Source: a virus. From it: 64,000 bases of DNA. Numbering within the stretch: position 1 is the first letter of the stretch; each line of letters begins with the position of its first letter. The stretch covers positions 18,498 to 82,497 of the IMG/VR virus record IMGVR_UViG_3300043419_000898; one strand, given 5' to 3'. A program made the position numbers and the translations under genes. Below the pieces are notes generated by a model. It was not told the origin of the DNA, ran no database searches, and was given only the letters and a program-made list of their open reading frames with translations. This document shows, in pieces, positions 34,090 through 53,814 of the stretch.

Positions 34090-34392
34090 ATGACATTCAC
34101 TGAGATTTCCGATTTTGTCGCCAACGGACGAACTGTATACAGAACGTCTGAGCCTGAGCAGATGTACTTCATCTTTTCTGGTCGTATTGCAAACGTCGTT
34201 ATCTTTACTGCTGATACTGAGTATCTTCCTGAGCCGGGTAACGGATACTGCGTGTATACGCACGATGTAGAAGGAGTTGAGTACAAGATTATTGACGACT
34301 GGGTAATCTCAACTGACATGCTTGGTGCTGATGACTGGGAAGTTGTGCCAGATATGTCCATTGAATGGGGAGATAGAAATTCTGAGCGATGA
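34090..34392 (+). CDS. Tad2-like (DUF2829) protein 1
   Basis: MTFTEISDFVANGRTVYRTS at the start and MLGADDWEVV near the end match the two ends of DUF2829/Tad2-type domains (helix with an MTFxEA..L..G..V.R motif; closing DDWEV). The 100 residues are within family length. Tad2 of other phages binds the Thoeris signal gcADPR; whether this copy does is unknown. Ribosome site GGAG. Starts the coupled Tad2-like run. Confidence 0.65.
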   Translation: MTFTEISDFVANGRTVYRTSEPEQMYFIFSGRIANVVIFTADTEYLPEPGNGYCVYTHDVEGVEYKIIDDWVISTDMLGADDWEVVPDMSIEWGDRNSER

Positions 34393-35021
34393 CATTCAAA
34401 GACATATTGCCACACCTTGAGTTAGGCTTATTCTGTCGTCGTAGGTCAGACTTGAATTACTACTACTTTATCTACGACGGAAAGAACTACAACTATCAAG
34501 TGGGGCTTGAGCCTGAAAATGGAAAGCCAGCACTTGGAAACGGATATAGAATTTCATCTAAGCCGGTAGTTGTCAACGGCTATTGTGGGTACACCTTAGA
34601 TGACTGGGAGCCTAACGAGCTCGACATGAGTGTGTCTGACTGGGAGGTTCCAGCGGTTGACCTTTTGCTACCTGAAGTAGTAATGGAGAAACAAGAAGTG
34701 GCACCAGTGGAAATCAAGAGGCTTGACACAAGCAAGCCGATATCAAAGCGACCACCACGGCAAAGAGAGCCAAAGAGCAACATAGACTTTGATGTAGCAC
34801 TTCTTCACCTAAAGAAGGGTGGCATCACTGAAGTGCCAACATACGAGCAAGGCGACATACTCGCTGTTCAGTACCAACTATTCAACAACATTACACTGAT
34901 GACTCGCAAGCGGTTATACGACAAAGTCTATGACGCATGGGTGCCATATCAGTGGCAAGCAAAAGACTTTGCCTGTATTGATTACAGGCTACTGAAAGCA
35001 AAGGATAAGAATGACTCCTAG
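34389..35021 (+). CDS. Two-domain protein with N-terminal Tad2-like domain (210 aa)
   Basis: Residues 1-~98 are Tad2-like (MTFKDILPHLELGLFCRRRS; ELDMSVSDWEVP). A basic linker (SKPISKRPPRQREPKSN) leads to a second ~70-residue domain (ALLHLKKGGITEVPTYEQGD; FACIDYRLLKAK) that may be a second, diverged copy. Coupled by ATGA to the gene before. Confidence 0.6.
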   Translation: MTFKDILPHLELGLFCRRRSDLNYYYFIYDGKNYNYQVGLEPENGKPALGNGYRISSKPVVVNGYCGYTLDDWEPNELDMSVSDWEVPAVDLLLPEVVMEKQEVAPVEIKRLDTSKPISKRPPRQREPKSNIDFDVALLHLKKGGITEVPTYEQGDILAVQYQLFNNITLMTRKRLYDKVYDAWVPYQWQAKDFACIDYRLLKAKDKNDS

Positions 35022-35259
35022 AAAACGATACATCTACATGCTGAAGGCTGATGGTCAAAACGACAATCGTGTCTTTTACATCACAACAAAAGCAAAGTAT
35101 GTTATCTGTGAGATGCTAAAGAAGGGTGCTACTGAAGTCACCGTACTGCGAGCAGAACACGATGAGTTTAAGGCAAATCCTAACTGCGAAATGGAAGTAG
35201 TCACTGTGTGCGACAAGGTTTGGTGGAACGACTACTTGCAAGGAAAACGTGGATGGTAA
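35011..35259 (+). CDS. Unknown protein (82 aa)
   Basis: A basic alpha/beta protein (RYIYMLKADGQNDNRVFYIT; YVICEMLKKGATEVTVLRAE) with no clear Tad2 ends. Overlaps both neighbours. Function unknown. Confidence 0.6.
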   Translation: MTPRKRYIYMLKADGQNDNRVFYITTKAKYVICEMLKKGATEVTVLRAEHDEFKANPNCEMEVVTVCDKVWWNDYLQGKRGW

Positions 35260-35645
35260 TCAACCTTTTGCCGACTGGTCACAAAGAGCAGTTCAGAGAG
35301 TCTTTTGTTTCTGAGGTAATCAGTGCCCTAAGAGAGCCTAATGAGACAACACATGAAGTCTATCTAGGTGACTACTACCTAAAAGTAGATAAGAAGTTCA
35401 TCACTGACATCGACTCAACAGATAAGAACTGGGAGCACGGTGTAATCAACTACGAGTTTGGATACACAGACAACAGCATTGAAGTGAATCCTATCAAGGG
35501 GCGTTTTGTTGGCGTAACTTTAATCTTTGCTGCACATCCGGAAATCATGATTGCTGATAGGTTTGACTACATCTACACACGATTAATCAACAACGTGTTG
35601 ACACAGGCAGAAGCAAAAGAATATTACGACGAACTTGACTACTAG
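35253..35645 (+). CDS. Unknown protein (130 aa)
   Basis: I use the ATG at 35253, which overlaps the preceding stop (ATGGTAA). The protein is acidic with a beta-rich middle (HEVYLGDYYLKVDKKFITDI; GRFVGVTLIFAAHPEIMIAD) and helical C-terminus. No family recognised. Confidence 0.6.
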   Translation: MVINLLPTGHKEQFRESFVSEVISALREPNETTHEVYLGDYYLKVDKKFITDIDSTDKNWEHGVINYEFGYTDNSIEVNPIKGRFVGVTLIFAAHPEIMIADRFDYIYTRLINNVLTQAEAKEYYDELDY

Positions 35646-35648
35646 TAG

Positions 35649-35677
35649 TTGACAAAGTACATGATAAGTGGTAAAAC
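35649..35677 (+). promoter_or_regulatory. Promoter with leaderless start inside the plus-strand array
   Basis: TTGACA 35649-35654, 17-base spacer, TAAAAC 35672-35677, then six bases to the ATG at 35684. Same geometry as at 21675 and in the 44-64 kb array. Confidence 0.7.
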
Positions 35678-35683
35678 ACTTAC

Positions 35684-35953
35684 ATGGAAAACAATAAGAA
35701 TAATGCACCACTTTGGTTTATCGGTGGGCTACTTTTAGGCGGTACTCCGATATTCCCATTTGCGTTCGGTTGCCTTGGATTGGTTTCAGTAATAGTCGTA
35801 TTTTCTATTGGTTCTGTTCTAAGTGCTCTGACTTATGCAGTAGTGCTGCACTGGAAGACGCTTTTGTTGTTTGTGATATTTGGCTCAGTATTCGCACTTC
35901 TCGGATACATGTACATGCTAGAGGAGAAGAAGAAGCGTGAAAATAAGGGCTAA
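35684..35953 (+). CDS. Membrane protein (89 aa), leaderless
   Basis: Three hydrophobic segments (PLWFIGGLLLGGTPIFPFAF; LVSVIVVFSIGSVLSALTY; TLLLFVIFGSVFALLGYMYM) and a basic C-terminus (EEKKKRENKG). Translation likely begins at the mRNA 5' end. Function unknown. Confidence 0.65.
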   Translation: MENNKNNAPLWFIGGLLLGGTPIFPFAFGCLGLVSVIVVFSIGSVLSALTYAVVLHWKTLLLFVIFGSVFALLGYMYMLEEKKKRENKG

Positions 35954-36272
35954 CTATATTGACGTCACATGTGACCAGTATGTTGCTTGCCACATGTTGG
36001 TCATGTTCTACGAAACAAACGTCGTATCAGACTTCATCAAAATCACCGTATCTGACGTGCTTTCAAACGATGTGGGCATGGAACCGTTGGTTATGTATCC
36101 ATCTATTGACGATGAGGCTTGTACGTACAAAGTACGGATGATTCTTCGTGGCGTTGAAGAAATCAAAGTTTATCCATACGACATGCTTCATAAGATGTTG
36201 AATAATCGTCTAATACCTTTTTGGATGACCGAGATTGACAAGTGTGTAGCGTCCATGAAGGGGCTAAACTGA
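35937..36272 (+). CDS. Unknown protein (111 aa)
   Basis: GTG start with a GAGGAGAAG ribosome site inside the previous gene. Mixed alpha/beta (KIRANYIDVTCDQYVACHML; YKVRMILRGVEEIKVYPYDM). Not clearly Tad2-like. The stop overlaps the next ATG (TGATG). Confidence 0.55.
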   Translation: MKIRANYIDVTCDQYVACHMLVMFYETNVVSDFIKITVSDVLSNDVGMEPLVMYPSIDDEACTYKVRMILRGVEEIKVYPYDMLHKMLNNRLIPFWMTEIDKCVASMKGLN

Positions 36273-36514
36273 TGACGCTTGAAGAAGCACTCTTCTGGAT
36301 GCGTGATGGTAAAGCCGTTGTTTCCAAGAAGATGATGATGAAGTTCAAAATGGAGAGACGTCCAGTCAACCTAGGAGGCTCTACAAAGACATACTGGTTC
36401 ATAGAGTTTCAGCACATGAATACTAAGTTTCCAGAAGAATGGATACGGTGGCATAGTGCAAATGATGACTTCTTCGACTTGATAAACGACGATACGTGGG
36501 AGTTAGTACCATGA
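36272..36514 (+). CDS. Tad2-like (DUF2829) protein 2
   Basis: MTLEEALFWMRDGKAVVSKK at the start and LINDDTWELVP at the end fit the family. The middle (RPVNLGGSTKTYWFIEFQHM) is unlike the others, so the ligand pocket probably differs. Coupled at both ends (TGATG, ATGA). Confidence 0.65.
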   Translation: MTLEEALFWMRDGKAVVSKKMMMKFKMERRPVNLGGSTKTYWFIEFQHMNTKFPEEWIRWHSANDDFFDLINDDTWELVP

Positions 36515-36702
36515 CAATCAATGATGCACTGCCGTTGCTTGATGAGAGAAAAATCATCTGTACGGCTTCACATCGTTTCAGGAAGAGCCGAATTGGCTAC
36601 GAGTGGACGAACGTAGGTGAGCCAGATATCTGGTGGCCAGTACAAGCAAAACTTGAGTTCATAGACATAACCGATGATTGGGTTTTAGAGGTAACAGAAT
36701 GA
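36511..36702 (+). CDS. Tad2-like (DUF2829) protein 3
   Basis: A short copy (63 aa): MTINDALPLLDERKIICTAS at the start and FIDITDDWVLEV at the end. Near the lower size limit for the fold, so possibly a minimal or decayed copy. Coupled by ATGA on both sides. Confidence 0.6.
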   Translation: MTINDALPLLDERKIICTASHRFRKSRIGYEWTNVGEPDIWWPVQAKLEFIDITDDWVLEVTE

Positions 36703-36974
36703 CATTTCCAGAAGCACTAGCACACTTACTTGACTACAGAGTAATGCAACGAGTTGATGATGGCCAGACATTCAACTTCTGGTTCAACAAAGATACCGGA
36801 AGCGGCATGTACGAAGAAGATGAGTTTATGTTTGCAAGCATGTGGTTTGTTTCTATTGACGACTTTACTGACGAAAACTGGGAGTTTACAGATAAAGCAA
36901 CAGAAGCACGTATCAAAGAGAAGTATAGTGCGAATCACAAGTATGTAAAAGGCATTGGCTTAGCACGTAAGTAA
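36699..36974 (+). CDS. Tad2-like (DUF2829) protein 4
   Basis: MTFPEALAHLLDYRVMQRVD at the start and DDFTDENWEF after ~65 residues match the family, with a basic ~25-residue C-terminal extension (RIKEKYSANHKYVKGIGLAR). Last gene before a terminator at 36991-37020. Confidence 0.6.
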   Translation: MTFPEALAHLLDYRVMQRVDDGQTFNFWFNKDTGSGMYEEDEFMFASMWFVSIDDFTDENWEFTDKATEARIKEKYSANHKYVKGIGLARK

Positions 36975-36990
36975 GCCAATTAACGAAATG

Positions 36991-37020
36991 TAGGCACCAT
37001 GAAAATGGTGTCTTTTTTTA
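36991..37020 (+). terminator. Terminator within the plus-strand array
   Basis: Stem GGCACCAT/ATGGTGTC (36993-37000 and 37005-37012), then seven T. Confidence 0.85.
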
Positions 37021-37029
37021 TTTGTACTA

Positions 37030-37058
37030 TTTACAATCTGACAACAAGGATGTATAGT
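37030..37058 (+). promoter_or_regulatory. Promoter with leaderless start before Tad2-like protein 5
   Basis: TTTACA 37030-37035, 17-base spacer, TATAGT 37053-37058, six bases, ATG at 37065. Confidence 0.7.
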
Positions 37059-37064
37059 GACTAC

Positions 37065-37256
37065 ATGAGATTTGCTGAAGTTATAGATGCTTTGATAAAT
37101 GGGAAGAAGGTTAGACGGGCTTCTTGGCAGCAAGTAGGCGGATGTGTCACGTGTGACTTTACACAGATGACCATCTCCATTGGCGGTGTTGACAGTCCAT
37201 TCAGCCTAAACACAATTTCTTTACTTGCTGATGACTGGGAGGTGCTTGATGACTAG
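37065..37256 (+). CDS. Tad2-like (DUF2829) protein 5, leaderless
   Basis: One of the clearest copies: MRFAEVIDALINGKKVRRAS then W, and LLADDWEVLDD at the end (63 aa). The start is fixed by the promoter geometry. It heads a new sub-operon. Confidence 0.75.
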   Translation: MRFAEVIDALINGKKVRRASWQQVGGCVTCDFTQMTISIGGVDSPFSLNTISLLADDWEVLDD

Positions 37257-37593
37257 TCAAGAGTTAGTGGATTGTTTGCTTGATGGCAAAACGTTGACTC
37301 ATTCTTTCTTTGGAAGGAACGGTCGTGTTCACATATTGAACGTAGCAGAAGAGCACGATGCTTACCAACGTCTTGTTGTTGTTTATAGGGATGGAGAGAT
37401 TGGCTGGAATCGACAGACTTATAAAGAGACGCTTGAACGCTCAAAGTTAGAGAACTTCTTAAAGCACATCTACATAGACACACTGAACATATACCGTGAT
37501 AACACGCTTATGATGCCAGAGCAGTATCAACTATTCAAGAAAGCATATAACGAGTCAGATTGGTCAATCTGGGAGCCTACAGATGAAGTTTAG
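37249..37593 (+). CDS. Tad2-like (DUF2829) protein 6, extended (114 aa)
   Basis: MTSQELVDCLLDGKTLTHSF at the start and NESDWSIWEPTDEV at the end, with ~40 extra residues between (TYKETLERSKLENFLKHIYI) that look helical. Overlaps its neighbours. A plausible but less certain family member. Confidence 0.5.
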   Translation: MTSQELVDCLLDGKTLTHSFFGRNGRVHILNVAEEHDAYQRLVVVYRDGEIGWNRQTYKETLERSKLENFLKHIYIDTLNIYRDNTLMMPEQYQLFKKAYNESDWSIWEPTDEV

Positions 37594-37849
37594 AGCAAAG
37601 CCTTCTGGCTGCAAGTACTTGTCAAAAAGAGACCAAGAAGCAATACGGTTCTGCATGAACTACTTCAGGGAGAATCCAACAGAACTTTCATGCACGTTGT
37701 ACGAAGTGCTTGAAGATGGTACTGAGCAGATAGTCGGAAATATCGCAAACCCTGAGTTTGAAAAACTGGAAGAAGACGTCGTAAGACTCATGTCTATCTA
37801 TACGCACTTCAAGAAAAAGGGTGAGCCTACACCAGAGATGTGGCAATAA
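37583..37849 (+). CDS. Unknown protein (88 aa)
   Basis: Helical start (YLSKRDQEAIRFCMNYF), short strands (CTLYEVLEDGTEQIVGNIAN) and a helical end. Lies in the array between Tad2-like genes. Unrecognised. Confidence 0.55.
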   Translation: MKFRAKPSGCKYLSKRDQEAIRFCMNYFRENPTELSCTLYEVLEDGTEQIVGNIANPEFEKLEEDVVRLMSIYTHFKKKGEPTPEMWQ

Positions 37850-37850
37850 G

Positions 37851-38042
37851 ATGCTTTTCAGCACATTAACAGACTTGCAGAACGTAGTGTTAGGACTACC
37901 TCAGTATGCAACTGAGCCTCCTAAATGGTTTATACATAGGGAGCATTACGCCTTGATTATAAAGTCACAGTACAAGTATGCAAAGGCTATTCGCAAAGCC
38001 AAGGCACGTAAAAAGCGTATCAATTCGAAGTGTGGAAGGTAA
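37851..38042 (+). CDS. Small basic protein (63 aa)
   Basis: The C-terminal half is very basic (YKYAKAIRKAKARKKRINSK), suggesting nucleic-acid binding. It starts one base after the previous stop. Function unknown. Confidence 0.55.
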   Translation: MLFSTLTDLQNVVLGLPQYATEPPKWFIHREHYALIIKSQYKYAKAIRKAKARKKRINSKCGR

Positions 38043-38045
38043 TCA

Positions 38046-38279
38046 ATGACTGGACTTGAAGCACTTGAATTATTGCGGAATAGCGACACTAAAGTCAAAC
38101 GTGCCGAATGGAGAAGTGATGAATACCTAAGAGCATATGGCAACGGTCAGGGTATATGTCCATCATTAGGCTACCACCGTAAACGGGGAGAGGACTGTTA
38201 CTATCCAGAGGATGCTGTTACTTTAACCGATGACATTTTAAACGACTTTACAGCAGACGATTGGGAGGCAGTGGAATGA
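38046..38279 (+). CDS. Tad2-like (DUF2829) protein 7
   Basis: MTGLEALELLRNSDTKVKRA then EW at the start and LNDFTADDWEAVE at the end. The middle has a Cys/Tyr-rich loop (GICPSLGYHRKRGEDCYYPE). Confidence 0.7.
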   Translation: MTGLEALELLRNSDTKVKRAEWRSDEYLRAYGNGQGICPSLGYHRKRGEDCYYPEDAVTLTDDILNDFTADDWEAVE

Positions 38280-38497
38280 CAATACACGAAATAAGCCCAT
38301 CTGTTTCCAAAGGCTTTCCATTTAAACGTGATGTCTGGCCACAAAAGCTTTACTACTACTACGACAGAGATGACCAGTGGTTTATCCAAGTTAACTCAGA
38401 GACTGGATGCGAAATCATCATGTACACACTTGACCTAAATCTTGAAGACTTGATGGCTACTGACTGGAGTGTTGACGAGTGGGAGGTAGAAGAATGA
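38276..38497 (+). CDS. Tad2-like (DUF2829) protein 8
   Basis: MTIHEISPSVSKGFPFKRDV then W at the start and TDWSVDEWEVEE at the end, a duplicated closing motif. Aromatic strand LYYYYDRDDQWF in the middle. ATGA coupling both sides. Confidence 0.65.
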   Translation: MTIHEISPSVSKGFPFKRDVWPQKLYYYYDRDDQWFIQVNSETGCEIIMYTLDLNLEDLMATDWSVDEWEVEE

Positions 38498-38703
38498 GTG
38501 GAGTGGAGGCACTAGCCTTAGCCAAGCACGGCATGAAGGTAACTTGTCACAACTGGTACGACAAAGATAATCCTTGGGACTACTCCGCATGGATTGAAGA
38601 AGGATGTATAGTGAATAGCCCGTACGAAGGTATGAGTGCATACGACGCCACAAACGCCTTTCTGGCAGACCTACTACATCAAGAATGGGAAGTACTTGAG
38701 TAA
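38494..38703 (+). CDS. Tad2-like (DUF2829) protein 9
   Basis: MSGVEALALAKHGMKVTCHN then WYD at the start and LLHQEWEVLE at the end, 69 residues. Its stop overlaps the next ATG (TAATG). Confidence 0.65.
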   Translation: MSGVEALALAKHGMKVTCHNWYDKDNPWDYSAWIEEGCIVNSPYEGMSAYDATNAFLADLLHQEWEVLE

Positions 38704-39032
38704 TGGAGCACGACTCATACAAGTGGATTATGGAGCAGTATCCAAAGACATCTGAAACGCTGGTCTTTGAGAGAGTCTGTGATGCACTACATGCACGTAA
38801 GTCATATGACAGAACGCTAGACACAGACGAAGACATCGTCAAGGTTGCAATCAAAGTCAGCCCTATTTCAAAGCAAGTGCGGGTAGGCATTAAGTTCAAA
38901 AACCCAGATGTCTGGATAAGTGACGCTGCCCCTACGGAGCCGTATAAGTATTCATACATGTATATGGGACTTCTGGAGAGCATTATTTGCTCTTATCAAT
39001 TGTGCAAGAAGTTTGACGCTGAACAACTATGA
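38703..39032 (+). CDS. Unknown protein (109 aa)
   Basis: Helical start (YKWIMEQYPKTSETLVFERV) then strands (VKVAIKVSPISKQVRVGIKF). No Tad2 ends. Overlaps the next gene by ATGA. Confidence 0.55.
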   Translation: MEHDSYKWIMEQYPKTSETLVFERVCDALHARKSYDRTLDTDEDIVKVAIKVSPISKQVRVGIKFKNPDVWISDAAPTEPYKYSYMYMGLLESIICSYQLCKKFDAEQL

Positions 39033-39331
39033 AGATAACACTCAAACACCGTGTGTACACGCACGACGACGGCACTAAAACAGACGTCTATGACCCAGAG
39101 GTTGAGGGCAAAGATGTAGGAATGCTCGTCCATGGGTTTAAGTTGGACTATGAAGTCTGGCGTCCACTAGGCTCTGAACTGGAATTCGTCATAAGGAAAC
39201 TAGTACGTGACGAAGAGAACCCACGACAGTATTTGACAGACGAAAATCTCAAGCCACTCAACGTTGATGTGCATATGCATGTCAAGTCAGTGACCATAGA
39301 GTTTGAAGAAATTTATCCACCAACTGGATAG
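39029..39331 (+). CDS. Unknown protein (100 aa)
   Basis: Beta-rich (KITLKHRVYTHDDGTKTDVY; NVDVHMHVKSVTIEFEEIYP), last gene before the tRNA. Unrecognised. Confidence 0.55.
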   Translation: MKITLKHRVYTHDDGTKTDVYDPEVEGKDVGMLVHGFKLDYEVWRPLGSELEFVIRKLVRDEENPRQYLTDENLKPLNVDVHMHVKSVTIEFEEIYPPTG

Positions 39332-39380
39332 ATATTATCCACCAGTTTCCTGACTGACCGTTTGAAAATTAACTTGTACT

Positions 39381-39399
39381 AGATATCCTTTGGACATCT
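39381..39399 (+). promoter_or_regulatory. Leader hairpin of the AGAT...ATCTTTAGG type
   Basis: AGATATCC/GGACATCT stem with a three-base loop, followed by TTTAGGGGG. Four similar elements occur at 39998-40015, 40854-40871, 40892-40909 and 42778-42794. Here it precedes the tRNA. Confidence 0.5.
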
Positions 39400-39434
39400 T
39401 TAGGGGGTATGAGTAATGTCGGTTAGGATTTTTT

Positions 39435-39506
39435 GGGCAGTTAGCTCAACGGTTGAGCAGCAAACTCATAATTTGTTGGTTAGGGGTTCGAATCCCTTAC
39501 TGCCCA
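39435..39506 (+). tRNA. tRNA with CAT anticodon (Met or lysidine-type Ile)
   Basis: The cloverleaf can be drawn: acceptor GGGCAGT (39435-39441) with ACTGCCC (39499-39505), D stem GCTC/GAGC, anticodon stem GCAAA/TTTGT with loop CTCATAA (anticodon 39467-39469), T stem AGGGG/CCCTT with TTCGAAT loop, discriminator A at 39506. CCA is not encoded. Met versus Ile2 cannot be decided by eye. Confidence 0.93.
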
Positions 39507-39571
39507 TAGATGTTTGAAAGACATCTTCCATACGATACAATAGGACTTCCATTACAAAACTCCTTACTCTA

Positions 39572-39610
39572 AACCCAGATGCATCTCCCGCATCTGGGTT
39601 CTTTTTTTTT
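39572..39610 (+). terminator. Terminator after the tRNA
   Basis: An 11-bp perfect stem (39572-39582 with 39590-39600) and nine T. Confidence 0.9.
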
Positions 39611-39705
39611 GTGGTAGGATGAAATTGCCACCGAAAGGTGAGCATTTGAACGAAAGACCAGAGAAATCTGGGCTACGTCCGACAAACACATACTCTGCAA
39701 ACAGA
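39611..39705 (+). other. Gene-free stretch between two terminators
   Basis: About 95 bases between strong plus-strand terminators, containing a GCCACC-GAAA-GGTGAG hairpin (~39627-39643). No ORF is seen. It could specify a small RNA, but no convincing promoter is visible. Confidence 0.3.
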
Positions 39706-39735
39706 AAGACCAGTTCTCCAGACTGGTCTTTTTTG
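39706..39735 (+). terminator. Second terminator before Tad2-like protein 10
   Basis: Stem AGACCAGT/ACTGGTCT (39707-39714 and 39722-39729) and six T. Confidence 0.85.
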
Positions 39736-39746
39736 TTAGGTGACCT

Positions 39747-39983
39747 ATGACCGGTGAAGAAGTACTACCACTCTTACGTAAAGGCAAACTGATGAGGCGA
39801 AAAGCATGGAGTCCAAAGCTGCATGTCTTCATGAGGCAGATGGGTGATACCTACTACCTATTCGCTCAAGGGGCTGATGTCTTTGACCTTATGGACGACA
39901 AAATCAAACTGTCCGACTTCTTCTATGACGACTGGGAAATATATGTTGATATAGTTGACAACAGTAAGCCATCAGATGTATAA
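39747..39983 (+). CDS. Tad2-like (DUF2829) protein 10
   Basis: A clear copy: MTGEEVLPLLRKGKLMRRKA then WSPK at the start and LSDFFYDDWEIYVD near the end (78 aa). The promoter of the next unit lies in its last codons. Confidence 0.72.
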   Translation: MTGEEVLPLLRKGKLMRRKAWSPKLHVFMRQMGDTYYLFAQGADVFDLMDDKIKLSDFFYDDWEIYVDIVDNSKPSDV

Positions 39984-39984
39984 T
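39955..39984 (+). promoter_or_regulatory. Promoter for the 40.0 kb sub-operon
   Basis: TTGACA 39955-39960, 18-base spacer, TATAAT 39979-39984. The mRNA would start just before the hairpin at 39998-40015, which is followed by the AGGAG ribosome site of the ATG at 40028. Confidence 0.75.
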
Positions 39985-40027
39985 TTACTCAATGGGTAGA
40001 TACTCAAGAGTATCTTTAGGAGTAAGT

Positions 40028-40246
40028 ATGCTGGATATGTCGTTTGACCCTATATGGGCATTGAAGCAAGGGTATACAGTTGTTACTGAGTATCCAAACA
40101 ACACGTCATTTCACTACAAAATCATCGACGGGAAGTTAAAGTCGAAATGCACTTTCTATGTAGATGACTTCTGGAAAGATGCTGGTTATTTCGTACTTGG
40201 TGTAGACGTTAAGTGCTCACTTATCCCACCGGAGCCACCAATTTGA
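40028..40246 (+). CDS. Diverged Tad2-like protein 11 (72 aa)
   Basis: MLDMSFDPIWALKQGYTVVT has the spacing of the family's opening helix (A..L..GY.V), but the closing DDW motif is weak (DDFWKDAGYFVLGVD). Start chosen by TTTAGGAG eight bases upstream. Membership is uncertain. Confidence 0.5.
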   Translation: MLDMSFDPIWALKQGYTVVTEYPNNTSFHYKIIDGKLKSKCTFYVDDFWKDAGYFVLGVDVKCSLIPPEPPI

Positions 40247-40464
40247 CAGTAGATACAGCAATCAAAAGTATCCTTGAGGGACATCGAGTAATCAACGACT
40301 CAAGCATGAGTTTTACTGAGATTCACTACGACAAAGAGTCTAAGTACTTCATATACTCCATCCAAGGGGTTGAGTCCATGAGGGATAGGAAGTTAATGCT
40401 GGCGTTATCTGATTTAAAAAGTAAGGACTGGAAGATAGTTGACATTCGGACAAGCACTACATAG
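40242..40464 (+). CDS. Tad2-like (DUF2829) protein 12
   Basis: Starts at a TTG overlapping the previous stop. TVDTAIKSILEGHRVINDSS opens and LKSKDWKIVD closes the domain. Confidence 0.6.
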
Positions 40465-40654
40465 TTTGAAAAAAGGTTTCACTGTGACTCGTACATACGT
40501 TGAGTCCGACGCTGTTGTTGTTGTGTTTTGTAAATTCACAAACAACCAAAGACTGGTTAGAAAGAAAGTCACAAGTAGACATCAGTCCGACTGGAGGCTT
40601 TCTGGTTGGTCACTCAAGGATATGTCCGCAACTGACTGGATAGTCGCTGGATGA
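40439..40654 (+). CDS. Tad2-like (DUF2829) protein 13
   Basis: TTG start (MTFGQALHSLKKGFTVTRTY) inside the previous gene's last codons and MSATDWIVAG at the end. The middle is basic (NNQRLVRKKVTSRHQ). Confidence 0.65.
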   Translation: MTFGQALHSLKKGFTVTRTYVESDAVVVVFCKFTNNQRLVRKKVTSRHQSDWRLSGWSLKDMSATDWIVAG

Positions 40655-40833
40655 CAGCCACAGAGGCTTATGACTGGGTTATATCTGGCGGCAAAGTTAG
40701 ACATGCTACTTGGTCTATGGACACATACGCTTTCCTACATCATGGAGTAGTCAGTTATACGGATGGAACGTATCTGACAACTTGTCCGCCGTTTGAATTC
40801 TTTTCAAATAACTGGCAGATATATACAAAGTAG
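40651..40833 (+). CDS. Tad2-like (DUF2829) protein 14
   Basis: A short copy (60 aa): MTATEAYDWVISGGKVRHAT then W at the start and FFSNNWQIYTK at the end. Coupled by ATGA. Confidence 0.65.
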   Translation: MTATEAYDWVISGGKVRHATWSMDTYAFLHHGVVSYTDGTYLTTCPPFEFFSNNWQIYTK

Positions 40834-40925
40834 GATACACTTATCATGAACGTAGATGCCTTATAGCATCTTTAGGAAAGTAAGGGAAGATAGATATCCA
40901 AGGATATCTTTGAAGGGAAAACAAC

Positions 40926-41303
40926 ATGGACTTTGTAACGATTATCGGTTTGACGTTTGGGCATTGGTTTGCTGACTTTGTGTTGCAGACACGTAAGATT
41001 GCAGAAACCAAGTCAAAGAGTTTTCGGTCGCTGTTTACTCACGTAGCCTTGTATACAGCCGCACTTGCTTGTGTGATGGTGCCTATCCTTATCCGACAGT
41101 ATGACTGGAGGTTGATTGTGTCTTTCATCCTTCTCAATGGTTTCTGCCATCTGGTCACTGACTTTGGAACATCTAAGATGTCAGCCGCCGCATACAAGGA
41201 CGAAGACAAGAGCCAGTTCTGGCAAATCATCGGCTTTGACCAGTCTATCCACTGGAGTCACTTACTGATTACTTACTTTGGCTTCTTCGTATGGGGTAAC
41301 TAG
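40926..41303 (+). CDS. DUF3307-like membrane protein (125 aa)
   Basis: The motif GHWFADFVLQTRKIAETKS and LNGFCHLVTDFGTSKM fit DUF3307 proteins, which have several membrane helices with conserved His/Asp. Hydrophobic stretches follow (HVALYTAALACVMVPILI; HLLITYFGFFVWG). Phages often carry this family; its role is unknown. Two leader hairpins (40854-40871, 40892-40909) precede it. Confidence 0.75.
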   Translation: MDFVTIIGLTFGHWFADFVLQTRKIAETKSKSFRSLFTHVALYTAALACVMVPILIRQYDWRLIVSFILLNGFCHLVTDFGTSKMSAAAYKDEDKSQFWQIIGFDQSIHWSHLLITYFGFFVWGN

Positions 41304-41304
41304 T

Positions 41305-41766
41305 ATGTGGGATAACAGTAAGCGAGTGAAACCATCCTATGAAGAGATATACCAACGAACAACAAAAGACGTTCTTGACTTAGTAGTCTCTCTTAGAGAG
41401 AAGCGTTACTCGTTTGACCGGATAGCCGGATACCTACATGAGAATGGTTATCAATCACCTCATGCTAAGTGGAATCCACATACGCTTAGTCGGCTGATGA
41501 AGATTCACGGGTTAGAGGAAAAGCAACTTTACAAGGTGCCAGACTACCGGCATATCAATGAGATACTTGAACTAAAAGAGTCGGGTATGTCTTTTAGGGA
41601 TATTGTTTCCCATCTAAACAATACCGGCAAGCGTAGACCGAGTGGTTTACCGTTTTGTGTCCATAGGCTTAGGGTTTACATACGGCAGTATCACATACTG
41701 AAAGAAAGGTATGGGGCTGAGATGGACAAGTACACCGTAGCGAGAGAGGAAGAAGATGACATTTGA
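41305..41766 (+). CDS. DNA-binding protein with recombinase-like repeats (153 aa)
   Basis: Two similar segments, REKRYSFDRIAGYLHENGYQ and KESGMSFRDIVSHLNNTGKR, each followed by a specificity-like stretch (SPHAKWNPHTLSRLM; RPSGLPFCVHRLRVYI). This resembles the DNA-binding 'recombinase' helix-turn-helix repeats of serine recombinases, without a catalytic domain. Likely a regulator. Confidence 0.6.
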   Translation: MWDNSKRVKPSYEEIYQRTTKDVLDLVVSLREKRYSFDRIAGYLHENGYQSPHAKWNPHTLSRLMKIHGLEEKQLYKVPDYRHINEILELKESGMSFRDIVSHLNNTGKRRPSGLPFCVHRLRVYIRQYHILKERYGAEMDKYTVAREEEDDI

Positions 41767-42007
41767 AGAAGCAGTCAAAGCCATGGATAACGGGGCTTTT
41801 GTTCGAAGGGCTGGTTGGTCTAAGAACATCAAGTTGTATGCCGCGTATCCAGCAGAAGAAGATGCTGAGCCGATAAACAATAAGCGGCATATCTTTGCAC
41901 AGATTGACTCATACGAGCCAGAGTATGCCATATTTCGGTTATCCGATATCTATGGCGATGACTGGTACGTAGTAAACGACGACAACACTACAGACGACGA
42001 GTTATAG
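41756..42007 (+). CDS. Tad2-like (DUF2829) protein 15
   Basis: The most typical copy: MTFEEAVKAMDNGAFVRRAG then WSKN, IKLYAAYP strand, and DIYGDDWYVVNDD at the end. It overlaps the preceding regulator gene by ATGA-like coupling. Confidence 0.8.
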   Translation: MTFEEAVKAMDNGAFVRRAGWSKNIKLYAAYPAEEDAEPINNKRHIFAQIDSYEPEYAIFRLSDIYGDDWYVVNDDNTTDDEL

Positions 42008-42015
42008 GAGACAAC

Positions 42016-42306
42016 ATGAAAAAGACGTGGGAAGAGAAGTTCGATGCGGCTTGTCAGTATAGTTACAATGACTTAATCATTGATGGTCAATGTACATATC
42101 CAGAGGCACTTATCAACGGATATAGAGCCATCATTGAAATGGTCACGACTGAGAAAGCTTGCAGTTTCTCGTACAACTGTGGCGGTTGGCATATCTTCTA
42201 CACAAGGAAAAAGAAGAAGTTTTCTCCTAAGGAAGAGTTCTTGCTGGAAGTTATCAAGAGTGCCAAACATGGTTACTCTAGTTACGACACGGAGGATTAT
42301 AGATGA
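42016..42306 (+). CDS. Unknown protein (96 aa)
   Basis: Basic, aromatic (SFSYNCGGWHIFYTRKKKKF) with helical ends (EEFLLEVIKSAKHGY). Has a GGAGACAAC ribosome site. Unrecognised. Confidence 0.55.
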   Translation: MKKTWEEKFDAACQYSYNDLIIDGQCTYPEALINGYRAIIEMVTTEKACSFSYNCGGWHIFYTRKKKKFSPKEEFLLEVIKSAKHGYSSYDTEDYR

Positions 42307-42503
42307 CGTTTGGTCAGATTTACGGGTTAGTCAAAAAGGGACGCTGGTTTGGTCGTAGTAGCCAACCAAAGAGTCGGACATGCATGGTAGCGGATACATT
42401 CCTTATCCACGACTTGTCGGAAGATGGAAGCATCATCAAGTGGAATGTTCTTTCACTAACAACAGAAGACATGATGGCTGATGACTGGGAAGTCTACAGT
42501 TAA
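42303..42503 (+). CDS. Tad2-like (DUF2829) protein 16
   Basis: MTFGQIYGLVKKGRWFGRSS at the start and TTEDMMADDWEVYS at the end, 66 aa. Coupled by ATGA. Confidence 0.72.
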   Translation: MTFGQIYGLVKKGRWFGRSSQPKSRTCMVADTFLIHDLSEDGSIIKWNVLSLTTEDMMADDWEVYS

Positions 42504-48989: not shown

Positions 48990-49307
48990 TTACTTGGAAC
49001 GTGCTGGCCACGTGCCATACCGGATAACACCGGCATCGATGTACATAACACCGGTGAACGTGTCATCGGTAGTACCATCGCGGAATTCCTTGAATGCTAC
49101 GTTCATCCGAACCATTCTTTGCCCTTGCTGTGTGCCATGCACGATGCCACGTGCTACGCTACCGTCGCCTAAGATAGCGGACGCTTGACGGATGCCGAAT
49201 TGTTCGAACAGCATTTTTTCCGCTTGCTTTACAGCGATGGCATTTGCCGCGACGGAGTCGGAGGACGTGTCTACCGTGTCCCAACCGGTTGGTGTAGTGT
49301 TTTCCAT
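48990..49307 (-). CDS. MENTT-class protein (105 aa), leaderless
   Basis: Start at MENTT, five bases after TACCAT (49313-49318), -35 TTGCAT (49335-49340). The first ~23 residues (MENTTPTGWDTVDTSSDSVA) are nearly shared with the genes at 51021 and 55034, while the rest differs (AVKQAEKMLFEQFGIRQASA). Confidence 0.7.
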   Translation of the reverse strand: MENTTPTGWDTVDTSSDSVAANAIAVKQAEKMLFEQFGIRQASAILGDGSVARGIVHGTQQGQRMVRMNVAFKEFRDGTTDDTFTGVMYIDAGVIRYGTWPARSK

Positions 49308-49563
49308 ACCTAATGGTATCACCTATTGTCACCTATGCAAACTATTTATCGGATATATTTTCGGCAGTTTACCAGTGAAATTTCAAATTCATGGTGACAG
49401 ATAGTCACGGCTAGCTTCTCCGACAGGCTGCCATCCCTACTGTAAGTCCTGCCAAGCCGGGATGTGACGGATAGTCACGTGTGACTTTTGGTCACATCAA
49501 AATCGAAATGTGACTGGAAGTCACCTATCAGGCATAATGCCCAATGCAGGGGTGCTGTCACCA

Positions 49564-49574
49564 CCCCCCCCCCC
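49564..49574. repeat. Poly-C tract (11 C) after a gene end
   Basis: Plus-strand C run (G run in the transcript) 17 bases after the stop of the gene at 49592-49825. Similar tracts lie at 52400-52408 (9), 55477-55485 (9), 58433-58442 (10) and 62121-62127 (7), each after a minus-strand stop and next to TGCAGG. Confidence 0.75.
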
Positions 49575-49591
49575 GCTGGTACCCGCTCCGA

Positions 49592-49825
49592 CTAGTCACC
49601 GTAGTGGAATTCATACAAACATTCGGAACAAATGTTCCGCTCTTCCGTACGAACAATTTCGCCGGTGTAGTCATGTTTGTGGATTTGGCACTCGTATACA
49701 TCATTGCCTAATCCGTCATTGCATTTATCGCAACCGTAGCGGGTGAAATGACGCTCTTCGGCGTTCTGCATGGTGACATTTGCACCGGACATTTCGAGCG
49801 ATTCGATGTACTCTTCCCAAGTCAT
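49592..49825 (-). CDS. Zinc-finger-like protein (77 aa), GGGAACC class
   Basis: Cys/His pairs are spaced as CDKC, CQIHKH and CSEC, a likely zinc-binding set. Start MTWEEYIESLEMSGANVTMQ. Promoter TTGACT-N16-TATTAT at 49863-49890. Followed by a poly-G transcript tract instead of a clear terminator. Confidence 0.68.
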   Translation of the reverse strand: MTWEEYIESLEMSGANVTMQNAEERHFTRYGCDKCNDGLGNDVYECQIHKHDYTGEIVRTEERNICSECLYEFHYGD

Positions 49826-50008
49826 TTTCGTGGTTCCCTTCATAGCACTTGGCTACACTAGAATAATACCATGTTGGTAGACAAAGTCAATGTGAAAAAT
49901 TACCATTGAATATGCAACAACTGGAACAGCAGGATAGATTCCTAGTTTCACAACCTGCCTATAGGTCAAGAAAAAACCGGCTGGATGGTTTCCAACCGGT
50001 TTGATGTA

Positions 50009-50242
50009 TTAGGCTCCGAAACCGAGCCTTTTTCGCCACGTTGGGGCATTTTTTGGGTCTTGACGGTACCGGAGCTCGGCACTGCAATAGTGGATTTCAT
50101 CGGTGTAGTATCCGATGTTTGGATTATCCGGTTGGAGCCGGATAACTTGCTGACAGTCGGCAATTATGTGCCGGAGCGAGTGAAGGCAATTGTGTACCAG
50201 ATTCCGCTGATACTCGGTGTGGTTCATTTGTTTGGTTCCCAT
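50009..50242 (-). CDS. Unknown protein (77 aa), leaderless MGT class
   Basis: MGTKQMNHTEYQRNLVHNCL then helices (LRHIIADCQQVIRLQPDN; YYTDEIHYCSAELRYRQDPK). Promoter TTGCAA-N17-TAAATT at 50249-50277. Terminator 49972-50003. Confidence 0.65.
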   Translation of the reverse strand: MGTKQMNHTEYQRNLVHNCLHSLRHIIADCQQVIRLQPDNPNIGYYTDEIHYCSAELRYRQDPKNAPTWRKRLGFGA

Positions 50243-50401
50243 GCATCTAATTTACCACCACTTTGTATACGTTGCAAATGTATTTTGTTGTTAGAGAATA
50301 ACTATTGAATATGCAACTACATTGAGCAGATGGCAGGACTACCGAGTGGGAGTCAAGCCTGTCACAAGACAAAAAGAAAACCGGGATTTCTCCCGGCTTG
50401 A

Positions 50402-50659
50402 TTAGTCTTCGATTTCTCTTGGTATGCATATACACGCATTGACCAATTCTCTTTCCGACATCATACGCACCACGTAATTTGACATGGTGATTTCACCGGC
50501 GTCGGCACCATCAGAGTATTGAGTCGCCTTGATGGTGATATCTCGACCCATAAACATTTCCGTACCTACGTTACGGAGCAACGCTGGTACCGTGGCAACG
50601 AATTTGCCATTGACGGTGAAGTTGTACGTACCACTGAGGTACTCTTTGGTGTTTCTCAT
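50402..50659 (-). CDS. Unknown protein (85 aa), leaderless
   Basis: MRNTKEYLSGTYNFTVNGKF then a beta domain (GRDITIKATQYSDGADAGEI). Promoter TTGACA-N17-TAGGAT at 50666-50694, ATAGGC, ATG. Codons 2-4 (AGA AAC ACC) echo the MENTT start. Terminator 50378-50400. Confidence 0.68.
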   Translation of the reverse strand: MRNTKEYLSGTYNFTVNGKFVATVPALLRNVGTEMFMGRDITIKATQYSDGADAGEITMSNYVVRMMSERELVNACICIPREIED

Positions 50660-50760
50660 GCCTATATCCTAGGGCATGAATTAGACTTTGTCAACACCTA
50701 TTTTGAAAATAGTTTTATAGGCATACGGTACAAATTTGCTACCACGGCTCAAATGCAACA

Positions 50761-50855
50761 ATGCCTCTATTTGTCCAAATTTGGCGATTCTAGCCACTTA
50801 TCATGCGATATTGAGTAAAGTATCATCGAGCATCAAAAACGGCTCTATTTGGGCA
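50761..50855. repeat. ~100-bp intergenic repeat, copy d
   Basis: ATGCCTCTATTTGTCCAAAT at the left and ACGGCTCTATTTGGGCATTT at the right. It occupies part of the gene-free stretch 50660-51020, which also has a CAGG-N20-CCTG element and a double terminator (50952-51012). The CCCAATGCAGG part is missing here. Confidence 0.55.
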
Positions 50856-51020
50856 TTTCAGAGCGTTAGTCAAAACGTGTCTGTTGTTTGTTTGATTATT
50901 CAACTATGGCAGGGCTAGTCACCACTCAGTAAGCCTGTCGTCAGGCAAAAAGAAAAGCCGGGATTGCTCCCGGCAGCTGCCTACGATGTAGAGCTGGGAT
51001 TTCTCCCAGCTCATTTCCTA

Positions 51021-51251
51021 CTAAAGGTAAAGCGACTTTTTGGTTGGCTCCAACCATTCTTCACGGAGCATAAAGGCAGCCATTTTCAAGCTACCCAAGC
51101 TCTTTTCATCGCAATCACGGATTTGGTCCATAAGCATTTCGACAGCTTCCAGAGCAATTTCAAGCCGCTTTTCGGTGATTGTCGCATTGGCGGCGATAGA
51201 GTCGGACGATGTATCGACTGAAGTCCAGCCGTTTGGTGTAGTGTTTTCCAT
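51021..51251 (-). CDS. MENTT-class protein (76 aa), leaderless
   Basis: Begins MENTTPNGWTSVDTSSDSIA and continues with helices (EALEAVEM-like LEIALEAVEMLMDQI; SLKMAAFMLREEWLEP). Promoter TTGACA-N17-TAAGAT at 51258-51286, ATAGAC, ATG. Double terminator at 50952-51012. Confidence 0.7.
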   Translation of the reverse strand: MENTTPNGWTSVDTSSDSIAANATITEKRLEIALEAVEMLMDQIRDCDEKSLGSLKMAAFMLREEWLEPTKKSLYL

Positions 51252-51401
51252 GTCTATATCTTACGGCATGAAATAGAGAATGTCAACAACTATTTTACAT
51301 TTGTTTTTAGAGCTACTAGCAGCTGCCAACGGCAGGTTCGGTGGCTGGTAGTAAGTCCTGTTGTGAGGCAAAAGAAAAGCCGGGATTCCTCCCGGCTTGC
51401 A

Positions 51402-51623
51402 TTACGATTTATGAGTAGCGATTATTTTTTCTGCTATCCAATCCCAATTTATATCATCAAGCATATCCAGCAGATAATCATACTTTGGGGATTCATCCAT
51501 AAAGTAATCGTGTGCCACCGACATTGCCTCACCACCATTGAATCCGTCTCCTGAGGACTCCCATTGTGCGACAAATCCATCATAAACGGTATCTAGTACT
51601 AGTTCAGTTTCAGCGTTTATCAT
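51402..51623 (-). CDS. Unknown acidic protein (73 aa), GGGAACC class
   Basis: Acidic and aromatic (VYDGFVAQWESSGDGFNGGE; YDYLLDMLDDINWDWIAEKI). Promoter TTGCAG-N16-TATAAT at 51644-51671. Terminator 51376-51400. Its charge could suit an inhibitor that mimics DNA, but this is speculation. Confidence 0.62.
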   Translation of the reverse strand: MINAETELVLDTVYDGFVAQWESSGDGFNGGEAMSVAHDYFMDESPKYDYLLDMLDDINWDWIAEKIIATHKS

Positions 51624-51850
51624 CTTGGTTCCCTTTCACAATTATTATACCACTTTGTCAACTATCTGCAAGAAAATATATCAACTATTTTTTGACTGAA
51701 ATAAAGACAGGTTCGAAGACTGGTAGTCAGTCCTGCCACAAGGGGGTGTGACGGATAGTCACCATGCAAACATTTGTTTGTTTTCCCAGTGATAGACATG
51801 AAAAAACCACTGGCTGATTTTAGCCAGTGGTGTAGCCTACGATAAAGGGA

Positions 51851-52099
51851 TTAGGCTAACTCTAGAGCCTTCTCCGTGAGTGCCCAACCGTACTTACCGC
51901 CTTCTGGGTCGAAGTCGATTAGTCCAGCGTCCTGAGCACCAGACATAACGCCAGCGGTACGCTCATTGCTCCAGCCGGTGACCTTGGCTACCATTTCGGC
52001 ACTAAACCACGAGTGGTTATCGAGCATCAATTGTGCCGCGGTCTCGTACGGGCTATCGGCGATTACGACTTCTACCAAACGCTTCTGAAATTCTGTCAT
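51851..52099 (-). CDS. Winged-helix-like protein (82 aa), GGGAACC class
   Basis: The pattern FSAEMVAKVTGWSNERTAGV then MSGAQDAGLIDFDPEGGKYG and WALTEKA reads as helix-turn-helix plus wing. Promoter TTGACT-N17-TATTAT at 52144-52172; leader with GTAGG...CCTAC hairpin. Terminator 51804-51832. Possible regulator of the array. Confidence 0.65.
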   Translation of the reverse strand: MTEFQKRLVEVVIADSPYETAAQLMLDNHSWFSAEMVAKVTGWSNERTAGVMSGAQDAGLIDFDPEGGKYGWALTEKALELA

Positions 52100-52232
52100 T
52101 GTGGTTCCCTCAGTAGGTTAGGTTGTTTCCTACCTACACTATGATAATATGCTATAACGTAGACAAAGTCAAGAAAATAAATGGCATATTGGCAAAATAT
52201 TTTTGACCATTTACCAGTGAAAAATCAATCTC

Positions 52233-52362
52233 ATGGTGACTTCTAGTCACGGGAGTCTTTGACAGGTTTGGCTACTAGTAGTCAGTCCTGCCGATGTGAC
52301 TGTCCGTCACGTGTGACCCAGCGTCACGGAGGTGACTATCAGTCACGGTGACTAGCCGTCAC
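52233..52362. repeat. Cluster of five GTGAC-N5-GTCAC palindromes
   Basis: Copies at 52233-52247, 52296-52310, 52313-52327, 52332-52346 and 52348-52362, the last four almost end to end. More than 20 copies occur in gaps between 44.8 and 62.1 kb (for example 46389-46430, 49392-49510, 55376, 58333, 62010-62047). Exact 15-bp geometry suggests a protein-binding site. Gap 52100-52442 holds no gene. Confidence 0.75.
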
Positions 52363-52442
52363 CATGTGCACTCTGCCCAATACAGGTGTCATGCGTCCAC
52401 CCCCCCCCTCCACGCCGCCAGCCAAAGAAAAGAAAACCGGGA

Positions 52443-52658
52443 TTACTCCCGGTTAGCCGCCACTTCGTTGCACGTGGCACAATCGTTGCAGATTTCTTCG
52501 TCTGCTATCCAATCATCTTCCCAGACCCAATCACCGCATTGTGTACACTGCATGGTACTAGGCTCCGCACCATAGCAATCATCATCCATATCATCTGCCA
52601 TCATCTCAGCATCCAGCCACGGTGCGATATTCGACTCCAGCATCCATTCTTCGTCCAT
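52443..52658 (-). CDS. Acidic zinc-ribbon-like protein (71 aa), GGGAACC class
   Basis: CTQCG...CNDCATC forms a zinc-ribbon pattern after a very acidic half (EMMADDMDDDCYGAEPS). Start at 52658 set by GGGAACC 52662-52668. Promoter TTGACA-N17-TATATT at 52686-52714. Terminator 52433-52457 overlaps the last codons; a poly-C tract lies at 52400-52408. Confidence 0.65.
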   Translation of the reverse strand: MDEEWMLESNIAPWLDAEMMADDMDDDCYGAEPSTMQCTQCGDWVWEDDWIADEEICNDCATCNEVAANRE

Positions 52659-52823
52659 TTTGGTTCCCTTCCTTCCTACATCAATAATATACCGTACATA
52701 GTAGACAATGTCAAGCAAATACATGAAAATACTTTGGTTGCATAATCAACAAACAACAGAGATGGCAGGATAGATGCCTACCTATAAGTCCTGCCATAAG
52801 GCATAAAAAAAGAGCCTTTCGGC

Positions 52824-53132
52824 TCATGCGAACATTTCGTCATACTCCATAGTGATTGCCTCTTCCCATAGCAGATTGACGTGATGGCGAAGCATCATAC
52901 TTCCTACATACTCAGTCACTACCAGATTGACGTTCCACTGTGCATCACCGTGCAATTCCGCCATCGTGTCATGCACCTCTTCACCGAATGCTTTGATAGC
53001 ACACATAATGATTTGCTTTTCATCTGCATCCAGAGGCGTATCAATGTTGATAGCGTGTGACCAGACTGCACGGTCTTCCATTGTGGAGGCGTCAAGTGCA
53101 CCGCAGATTACGAAGTGTAGTGTATTTCCCAT
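52824..53132 (-). CDS. Unknown protein (102 aa), leaderless
   Basis: MGNTLHFVICGALDASTMED then a mixed domain (QWNVNLVVTEYVGSMMLRHH). Promoter TTGACA-N16-TAAGAT at 53139-53166, ATAGGC, ATG. Terminator 52804-52828 ends inside the stop region. Confidence 0.66.
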   Translation of the reverse strand: MGNTLHFVICGALDASTMEDRAVWSHAINIDTPLDADEKQIIMCAIKAFGEEVHDTMAELHGDAQWNVNLVVTEYVGSMMLRHHVNLLWEEAITMEYDEMFA

Positions 53133-53241
53133 GCCTATATCTTATCATACTTTGTATACGTGTCAAGAAGTATTTTACTTGAATGTGCAACTACCTGAGA
53201 TGGCAGGAGTTGCACGATAGATGGCAGCCTGTAAGCCTCCA

Positions 53242-53400
53242 TCACTCCTCCCTTCCCTTGTGCTTTGCCTTCCGGCTGTACGTCCGTTTGTTGTCGTACA
53301 CCATCGATTTCTGCCACGGGCGGTCACTAGCCGGTATGCGTGATTTGTTGGCTGTACGGGCATTCTGGAGCTCTCTGTCGGTTAGTTTAATCGTTTTCAT
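53242..53400 (-). CDS. Small basic protein (52 aa), GGGAACC class
   Basis: MKTIKLTDRELQNARTANKS then DNKRTYSRKAKHKGREE. The basic NKRTYSRKxKHK tail is like small proteins of actinobacterial phages. GGGAACC precedes the ATG by three bases. It shares a transcript with 53451-53672, with a hairpin (53418-53442) between them. Confidence 0.62.
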   Translation of the reverse strand: MKTIKLTDRELQNARTANKSRIPASDRPWQKSMVYDNKRTYSRKAKHKGREE

Positions 53401-53450
53401 TGGTTCCCTTTCAAAGATAGAGCCGGTATTTCTACCGGCTCATTGAGTGA

Positions 53451-53672
53451 TTACGCTACGTTGATGTTTCCGTGCTTGACACAGAGTGCATCGTAGATTT
53501 CTCTACCGTTTTCAGTAAGGGATTCGTATCCCTTGTGAAGTGGTGAGATACGAAACTGCATTCGGTGCAACCTTCCGAAAATCCGGTAGATTGGGCAATT
53601 CATGCCACCATGCCAATCACTTGCGAACGCATGGTACGCTTCGCAGATATCAAACCTATCAAAATTCGTCAT
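53451..53672 (-). CDS. Small phage protein of the YHAFASDWHGG type (73 aa)
   Basis: The signature EAYHAFASDWHGGMNCPIYR then HKGYESLTENGREIYDALC is a family I associate with small accessory genes of actinobacteriophages, function unknown. Promoter TTGCGT-N17-TACATT at 53698-53726; GGGAACC 53678-53684. Confidence 0.68.
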   Translation of the reverse strand: MTNFDRFDICEAYHAFASDWHGGMNCPIYRIFGRLHRMQFRISPLHKGYESLTENGREIYDALCVKHGNINVA

Positions 53673-53787
53673 AACTTGGTTCCCTTCCGACACTGTTAAT
53701 GTACCATGCCTAGTAGACAAACGCAAATAAATAGTCAAACTATTTTTGTTGTTTATGCAACTAAATAACCTGTCATCAGACAAAGGG

Positions 53788-53812: not shown

Positions 53813-53814
53813 AT

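Follow-up and report, generated by a model that had tools for sequence, protein, structure and literature searches.

A large bank of diverged Tad2-like genes in a tailed phage and its counterparts in other phages

The IMG/VR virus record IMGVR_UViG_3300043419_000898 comprises 82,497 bp, of which bases 18,498-82,497, a stretch of 64,000 nucleotides referred to here as the window, were analyzed. The window carries a bank of small genes for Tad2-fold proteins, with 13 firm copies and two to three probable or possible divergent ones. The family itself is already known (PF11195, Tad2-like, formerly DUF2829); the novelty lies in a large, recurrent bank of its diverged genes. The bank lies in an uncultivated virus that is a tailed phage, as judged by a major head protein and a portal found by PHROG, and has a terminase related at ~41% to its counterparts in Bradyrhizobium phage BDU-MI-1 and Acetobacter phage phiAO1. 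Between 33.5 and 43.9 kb the plus strand is occupied by many small genes, and minus-strand genes flank this region on both sides.

A first-pass annotation made from the sequence alone had named 17 open reading frames (ORFs) in this region as Tad2-like, and all were found, open, at or near where it had placed them. They are lettered A to Q below, with the principal evidence for each from the Pfam model, from a family hidden Markov model (HMM) or from other comparisons.

34090..34392, plus strand: copy A, Tad2-like, 100 aa; PF11195 24.8 bits
34389..35021, plus strand: copy B, 210 aa, N-terminal Tad2-like domain and a second domain resembling N; PF11195 19.4 bits
36272..36514, plus strand: copy C, probable divergent member, 80 aa; N-terminal motif, Pfam negative
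36511..36702, plus strand: copy D, probable divergent member, 63 aa; hhalign 83%, N-terminal motif
36699..36974, plus strand: copy E, Tad2-like, 91 aa; family HMM 17.1 bits with E outside the model
37065..37256, plus strand: copy F, Tad2-like, 63 aa; PF11195 33.7 bits
37249..37593, plus strand: copy G, possible member, 114 aa; hhalign 50%, HMM 9.4 bits
38046..38279, plus strand: copy H, Tad2-like, 77 aa; PF11195 20.1 bits
38276..38497, plus strand: copy I, Tad2-like, 73 aa; PF11195 20.2 bits
38494..38703, plus strand: copy J, Tad2-like, 69 aa; family HMM 21.6 bits with J outside the model
39747..39983, plus strand: copy K, Tad2-like, 78 aa; PF11195 25.2 bits
40028..40246, plus strand: copy L, separate array-associated small family, 72 aa; homologue in a second array
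40243..40464, plus strand: copy M, Tad2-like, TTG start, 73 aa; family HMM 21.4 bits with M outside the model
40439..40654, plus strand: copy N, Tad2-like, TTG start, 71 aa; PF11195 30.0 bits
40651..40833, plus strand: copy O, Tad2-like, 60 aa; family HMM 19.6 bits with O outside the model
41756..42007, plus strand: copy P, Tad2-like, 83 aa; PF11195 37.1 bits, AlphaFold2 model and Foldseek
42303..42503, plus strand: copy Q, Tad2-like, 66 aa; PF11195 25.1 bits

Membership in the Tad2-like family

The Pfam model of PF11195 matched nine copies (A, B, F, H, I, K, N, P and Q) at E-values below 0.002. The Pfam cut-off of 25 bits was exceeded by F, K, N, P and Q, with A just below it. The family HMM was built from the Pfam-positive copies, the copies of two relatives and those of described phages, and was used to score all genes of the region along with 9000 shuffled decoys and 113 other genes of the phage. 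Copies J, M, O and E, which lay outside the model, scored 17-22 bits (E-values 1e-5 to 3e-4 at Z=1000); the best shuffled decoy reached 13.9 bits and the best of the other phage genes 7.3. On this profile evidence A, B, E, F, H, I, J, K, M, N, O, P and Q are taken as firm members. Most of the roughly 17 Tad2-like genes counted by the first-pass annotation do lie in the family, since profile searches with shuffled controls place 13 of 17 inside PF11195, but C and D are graded as probable, G as possible, and L fails.

These last four copies were scored with an HMM extended with the relatives from the second array described below. Copy C obtained 10.8 bits, a score reached by none of 2000 of its own shuffles, while G obtained 9.4 bits (1 of 2000), D 6.3 bits (11 of 2000) and L 3.2 bits (47 of 2000), the last amounting to no profile support. 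Probabilities from hhalign against the family profile were 89% for C, 83% for D, 50% for G and 4% for L; copy E with its orthologue gave 99%, but against a profile already holding E. The hhalign matches of C and D are confined to the N-terminal motif, and no whole-domain profile match was obtained for C, D, G or L. Judged by these scores, C and D probably belong to the Tad2-like family and G possibly does. The homologue of L in the second array (31% identity, E-value 2e-4) sits between Tad2-like genes, so L belongs with such banks. Copy B may carry two Tad2-like domains: its second domain matched copy N at 34 bits (E-value 5e-5), yet the orthologue of that domain gave no score in the HMM.

A profile of array-type copies alone, drawn from the window, the two phage relatives and an array of Klebsiella phage P184 and including no canonical Tad2, retrieved every solved Tad2/AcrIIA7 chain in the PDB at E-values of 1e-10 to 1e-6 (8kbi 1e-10, ModTad2 1e-7, SPO1 Gp34.65 3e-7, SptTad2 1e-6), and the next match followed at 0.11. 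A single-sequence phmmer search of the PDB with P returned nothing, so a profile was required. Copy P was modeled with AlphaFold2 from an alignment with 21 other array-type sequences, giving a mean confidence (predicted local distance difference test, pLDDT) of 84.5 and the order α-β-β-β-α-β. In a Foldseek search with this model the first 23 PDB matches were all Tad2 or AcrIIA7. The best was SPO1 Tad2 with 1''-3' glyco-cyclic ADP-ribose (gcADPR), at probability 1.00 and a template modeling (TM) score of 0.67-0.75; later matches included ModTad2 with hisADPR and AcrIIA7 with cADPR/cGG. The remaining firm copies would, from their sequences, share this fold.

Shared subfamilies, other arrays and constraint

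Among 50 viral records with a canonical Tad2, 47 contained one PF11195 match and three contained two. By the search used on those records the phage studied here has 8 matches, and by its own profile, which contains these sequences, 13. With F as the seed, a scan of the collection brought up a second large array in IMGVR_UViG_3300027193_000501 (166 kb), which is present in 3300027320_000006 as well, with 12 PF11195 match pieces per record, most within 2.5 kb, and ~11 domains, mostly in tandem. One protein of 232 aa in this array carries three Tad2-like domains (array contig 3820-4518). Unlike its bank, the 166-kb phage is dissimilar in the 51 kb compared, where proteins matching the window phage are mostly bank members. 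Seeding the scan with C returned only the known relative described below, and seeding with P alone returned no relative.

Copies F, H, I, J and L have their closest relatives in the array of the 166-kb phage. Matches to second-array copies reached E-values of 3e-10 and 6e-8 for I, 1e-6 for F, 6e-6 for J and 2e-4 for H, and each was better than the match to any copy in the same phage. In a shuffled-query control the best of 3400 gave 27 bits, as against 32-52 bits for these matches. That F, H, I and J resemble second-array copies more than their own neighbors indicates subfamilies that are older than the banks or that move between phages. Recent local duplication was considered and rejected, as the bank contains no long repeats and pairwise identity among copies has a median of 26%. 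Sequence comparison thus identifies several copies as old subfamilies common to other phages and not recent duplicates.

Smaller arrays of mostly tandem, non-canonical Tad2-like genes, annotated as hypothetical, are present in described phages: four to five genes in the Lactobacillus phages Iacchus and Bacchae and five in Klebsiella phage vB_KpnP_P184. Apart from the lower number of copies, these arrays differ from the present bank in that the Lactobacillus copies carry an extra C-terminal domain and P184 has one canonical Tad2 in addition. In the P184 array (535-3063), Tad2-like genes and several unrelated neighbors carry an AIG-containing motif at differing positions, which may be a DNA element embedded in them or a mini-motif that they have in common. 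The junction expected between tandem copies (DWE-V/I followed by MTFxEA) was searched in 2.9 million viral contigs and occurred at 34 places, among which only Klebsiella P184 was a real array once scored with PF11195. A DNA search for the array among described phages gave no match, and in the literature searched, to which the original Tad2 paper did not belong, no large Tad2 array is reported. The earlier remark that no phage had been described with an array this large therefore holds for the phages and literature searched, but an array of ~11 domains exists in another IMG/VR phage, and arrays of four to five had gone unremarked in described Lactobacillus and Klebsiella phages.

Constraint could be assessed with the relative IMGVR_UViG_3300009183_000346, a 24.8-kb contig that ends after F, and the comparison covers the six copies from A to F. 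Its order is the same as in the window (A, B, four unrelated genes, C, D, E, F), and each of its copies is closest to its syntenic partner. Orthologue identities range from 46% (E) to 84% (C), with 66% for A and 54% for D. The changes fall mostly at third codon positions (23/14/51 over the three positions in A and 12/11/44 in C), and the ratio of nonsynonymous to synonymous divergence (dN/dS) is 0.16 for A, 0.20 for F and 0.31 for D; dS is saturated in the remaining testable copies. The six testable copies are under purifying constraint. Hypervariability of the pocket loops between these orthologues was sought and not seen; the loops were conserved to about the same degree as the remaining sequence, which implies that every copy keeps its own version of the loops.

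Binding loops and the possible role of the bank

The loops β1-β2 and β4-α3 are described as forming the gcADPR pocket of Tad2 (PMC12043709). Those family members that have been tested act by sequestering immune signals of the nucleotide type, and their ligands vary. SPO1 Tad2 binds gcADPR and the Tad2 of a Myroides prophage (ModTad2) binds His-ADPR (PMC13299392). For other Tad2s the ligands are cyclic dinucleotides (PMC12043709), and 3'3'-cGAMP is not a ligand of SPO1 Tad2 (PMC11722364). ModTad2 and HgmTad2/SptTad2, the latter two binding cyclic dinucleotides, are members of PF11195 and show that the fold can switch ligand; they differ from the bank in being described as single genes, and the dinucleotide binders have a longer β2-β3 region.

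We regard as the most likely reading, with an even chance of being right, the idea, already put forward in the first-pass annotation as a panel of sponges, that the bank is a counter-defence by ligand sequestration whose subfamilies bind different nucleotide-type immune signals. The copies would then bind small molecules, with specificities that differ and with immune signals as the targets. Each subfamily would sequester a different host-made nucleotide-type signal, and the phage would thereby tolerate several or changing signaling defences, whether Toll/interleukin-1 receptor (TIR)/Thoeris-type, CBASS-type or related. Where hosts guard their signal pools, as bacteria do with Panoptes for example (PMC12657218), such a repertoire would lessen the reliance on any one sponge.

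A bank of subfamilies that are conserved in fold, diverged in their loops, constrained and exchangeable would fit a repertoire against several signals. Among the 13 firm copies the core residues are well kept (G13 in 11, R18 in 10, D75 in 10 and W81 in all 13), D80 is kept in most copies, and loops β1-β2 and β4-α3 vary strongly from copy to copy. SPO1 Tad2 (gp34.65; PF11195) resembles the copies in the fold of P, the N-terminal motif, the terminal D-x-x-x-x-D-W motif and size; it is unlike them in that a canonical Tad2 is usually single per phage and that it retains GWNGK and SQTD, which the array copies are without.

This last difference is one of several points that weigh against the sponge panel. 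The GWNGK and SQxD loop motifs are near-invariant in a canonical comparison set of 122 proteins from 160 loci and lost or altered in every copy; because that set was partly chosen by patterns covering these motifs, its invariance is overstated, but the absence of the motifs from the array is unaffected. Motif positions were tied to the pocket loops by SPO1 numbering and by the description in PMC12043709, not by coordinates. At the loop positions G20 is kept in 1 of 13 copies and W21 in 7, and N22, G23 and Q73 in none, and the conserved GWNGK and W-x-x-SQ-x-D motifs of the SPO1-type gcADPR sponge were not found in the 13 copies. Most copies also lack most of the β2-β3 region, the dinucleotide site of longer Tad2s. 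With respect to structure, the Foldseek check has matched the Tad2 fold for P alone, and the model of copy C (AlphaFold2 pLDDT 86) had best PDB and viral structure matches other than Tad2.

Because every copy has lost or altered these canonical motifs, gcADPR binding cannot be assumed and a role as a gcADPR sponge is not inherited by homology; it is for this reason, and because ligand binding is something we infer, that we rate the panel no higher. What speaks for it is that subfamilies are common to dissimilar phages, that the tested copies are under purifying constraint and that loops differ between copies. From their sequences, the array copies should not be annotated as "anti-Thoeris" by domain alone.

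A possible but less probable explanation is that the Tad2 fold is a general small binding scaffold, with most of the copies directed at host proteins or at other small metabolites during takeover and not at immune signals. The loss or alteration of the canonical ligand motifs in all copies speaks for it, as do the interleaving of the copies with unrelated small ORFans and the fusion of the domain to a further one in the Lactobacillus phages. AcrIIA7, a solved member of PF11195 that the array profile retrieves and that differs from the bank in being described as a single gene, is annotated as a type II CRISPR-Cas inhibitor, although a 2026 review lists it among anti-CRISPRs with conflicting activity reports (PMC13131331). 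Most of the solved PDB relatives, however, are nucleotide sponges or were crystallized with nucleotides.

A wider version of the panel, which we hold to be rather unlikely, is a combinatorial or multi-target repertoire, in which a dozen Tad2-fold proteins would be drawn from old subfamilies moving between unrelated phages and each protein, or each mixed tetramer, would neutralize a different bacterial immune signal, including undiscovered ones. Tad2 forms tetramers, and each pocket is built by protomers that come from different dimers. Co-translated paralogues could accordingly co-assemble into mixed tetramers with combinatorial pockets, and this proposal taken by itself seems quite improbable. 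The α1 helix, reported as the contact within the tetramer (PMC12043709), is among the best-kept parts in all copies, eight of the 17 gene starts fall in 4-nt overlaps, and the second array has its protein with three Tad2-like domains; yet the conserved α1 residues could be simply core, and the low identity between copies may block mixing. That the bank is drifting clutter, made of leftover duplicates of a single sponge that do little, is very improbable: the very low pairwise identity and lost motifs would suit it, but all 17 frames are open, the six testable copies keep order and frame in the relative with mainly third-position changes, and subfamilies are shared with distant phages.

Phage sponges against nucleotide alarm molecules have so far been described mostly gene by gene. 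If the sponge panel is correct, a dozen loop-diverged Tad2-fold proteins, along with a second phage that has several of these subfamilies, would show phages to maintain sponges in repertoires, and the subfamilies would be usable as reagents or baits for the signals they capture, known or undiscovered. If instead the copies bind no signals, the function assumed for the family would need revision, as phage genes are annotated anti-Thoeris from the domain alone.

Layout of the bank and other observations in the phage

The bank is broken up by ~10 unrelated small genes, a tRNA-Met and two terminator-like hairpins. The first-pass description of the genes as mostly chained by ATGA was overstated, as starts in 4-nt overlaps occur in 8 of 17 genes (seven ATGA, one TTGA); B overlaps A by ATGA. 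The remaining features inside the bank are as follows.

36992..37013, plus strand: terminator-like hairpin between E and F (hairpin scan)
37030..37058, plus strand: promoter-like site TTTACA-17-TATAGT, 6 nt before the ATG of F
39434..39507, plus strand: tRNA-Met (CAT) inside the bank (ARAGORN)
39572..39600, plus strand: strong terminator-like hairpin, 11 bp, T9 (hairpin scan)
39955..39984, plus strand: promoter-like site TTGACA-18-TATAAT, 12/12 consensus (promoter scan)

The hairpins at 36,992 and 39,572 and the promoter-like sites at 37,030 and 39,955 split the bank, which thus does not appear to be one operon and looks like several short operons. The terminator-promoter pair before F recurs in the 24.8-kb relative, with a hairpin and T run at the matching place and a promoter-like site of equal spacing (~19500-19541 there). 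In both phages 6 nt separate the end of the -10 box from the start codon of F (ATG), which suggests a leaderless transcript. The relative also has a tRNA-Met within its bank, between E and F (19393-19465 there), and the differing places of this tRNA in two related phages are a possible sign of a hot spot for insertion or recombination.

Two neighboring ORFs inside the bank, 40926-41303 and 41305-41766, encode a DUF3307 protein and a small product that resembles a portion of serine recombinases (PF07508); a collection scan seeded with the recombinase-like neighbor found nothing. A helix-Gly-strand mini-motif occurs in 3 of 18 non-Tad2 neighbors versus 0.5 expected (p=0.01), one of the three being the second domain of B; it is weak and is not claimed as a shared motif.

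Elsewhere in the phage, ~7 paralogous genes with the start M-x-TYYVR-x-DG-x-D lie on the minus strand of the structural region (window 1-12515, genome 17322-31012). They are possibly a tandem tail-spike-like set; a PHROG comparison of one paralogue gave no match. The N-terminus MENTT is common to at least nine small genes on the minus strand (window 48990-61399) that are otherwise unrelated, as if a translation-start cassette had been copied in front of different genes. The product of one small gene with this start (window 54152-54472) is 43% identical over 107 aa to a protein of the 166-kb phage (17322-17660).

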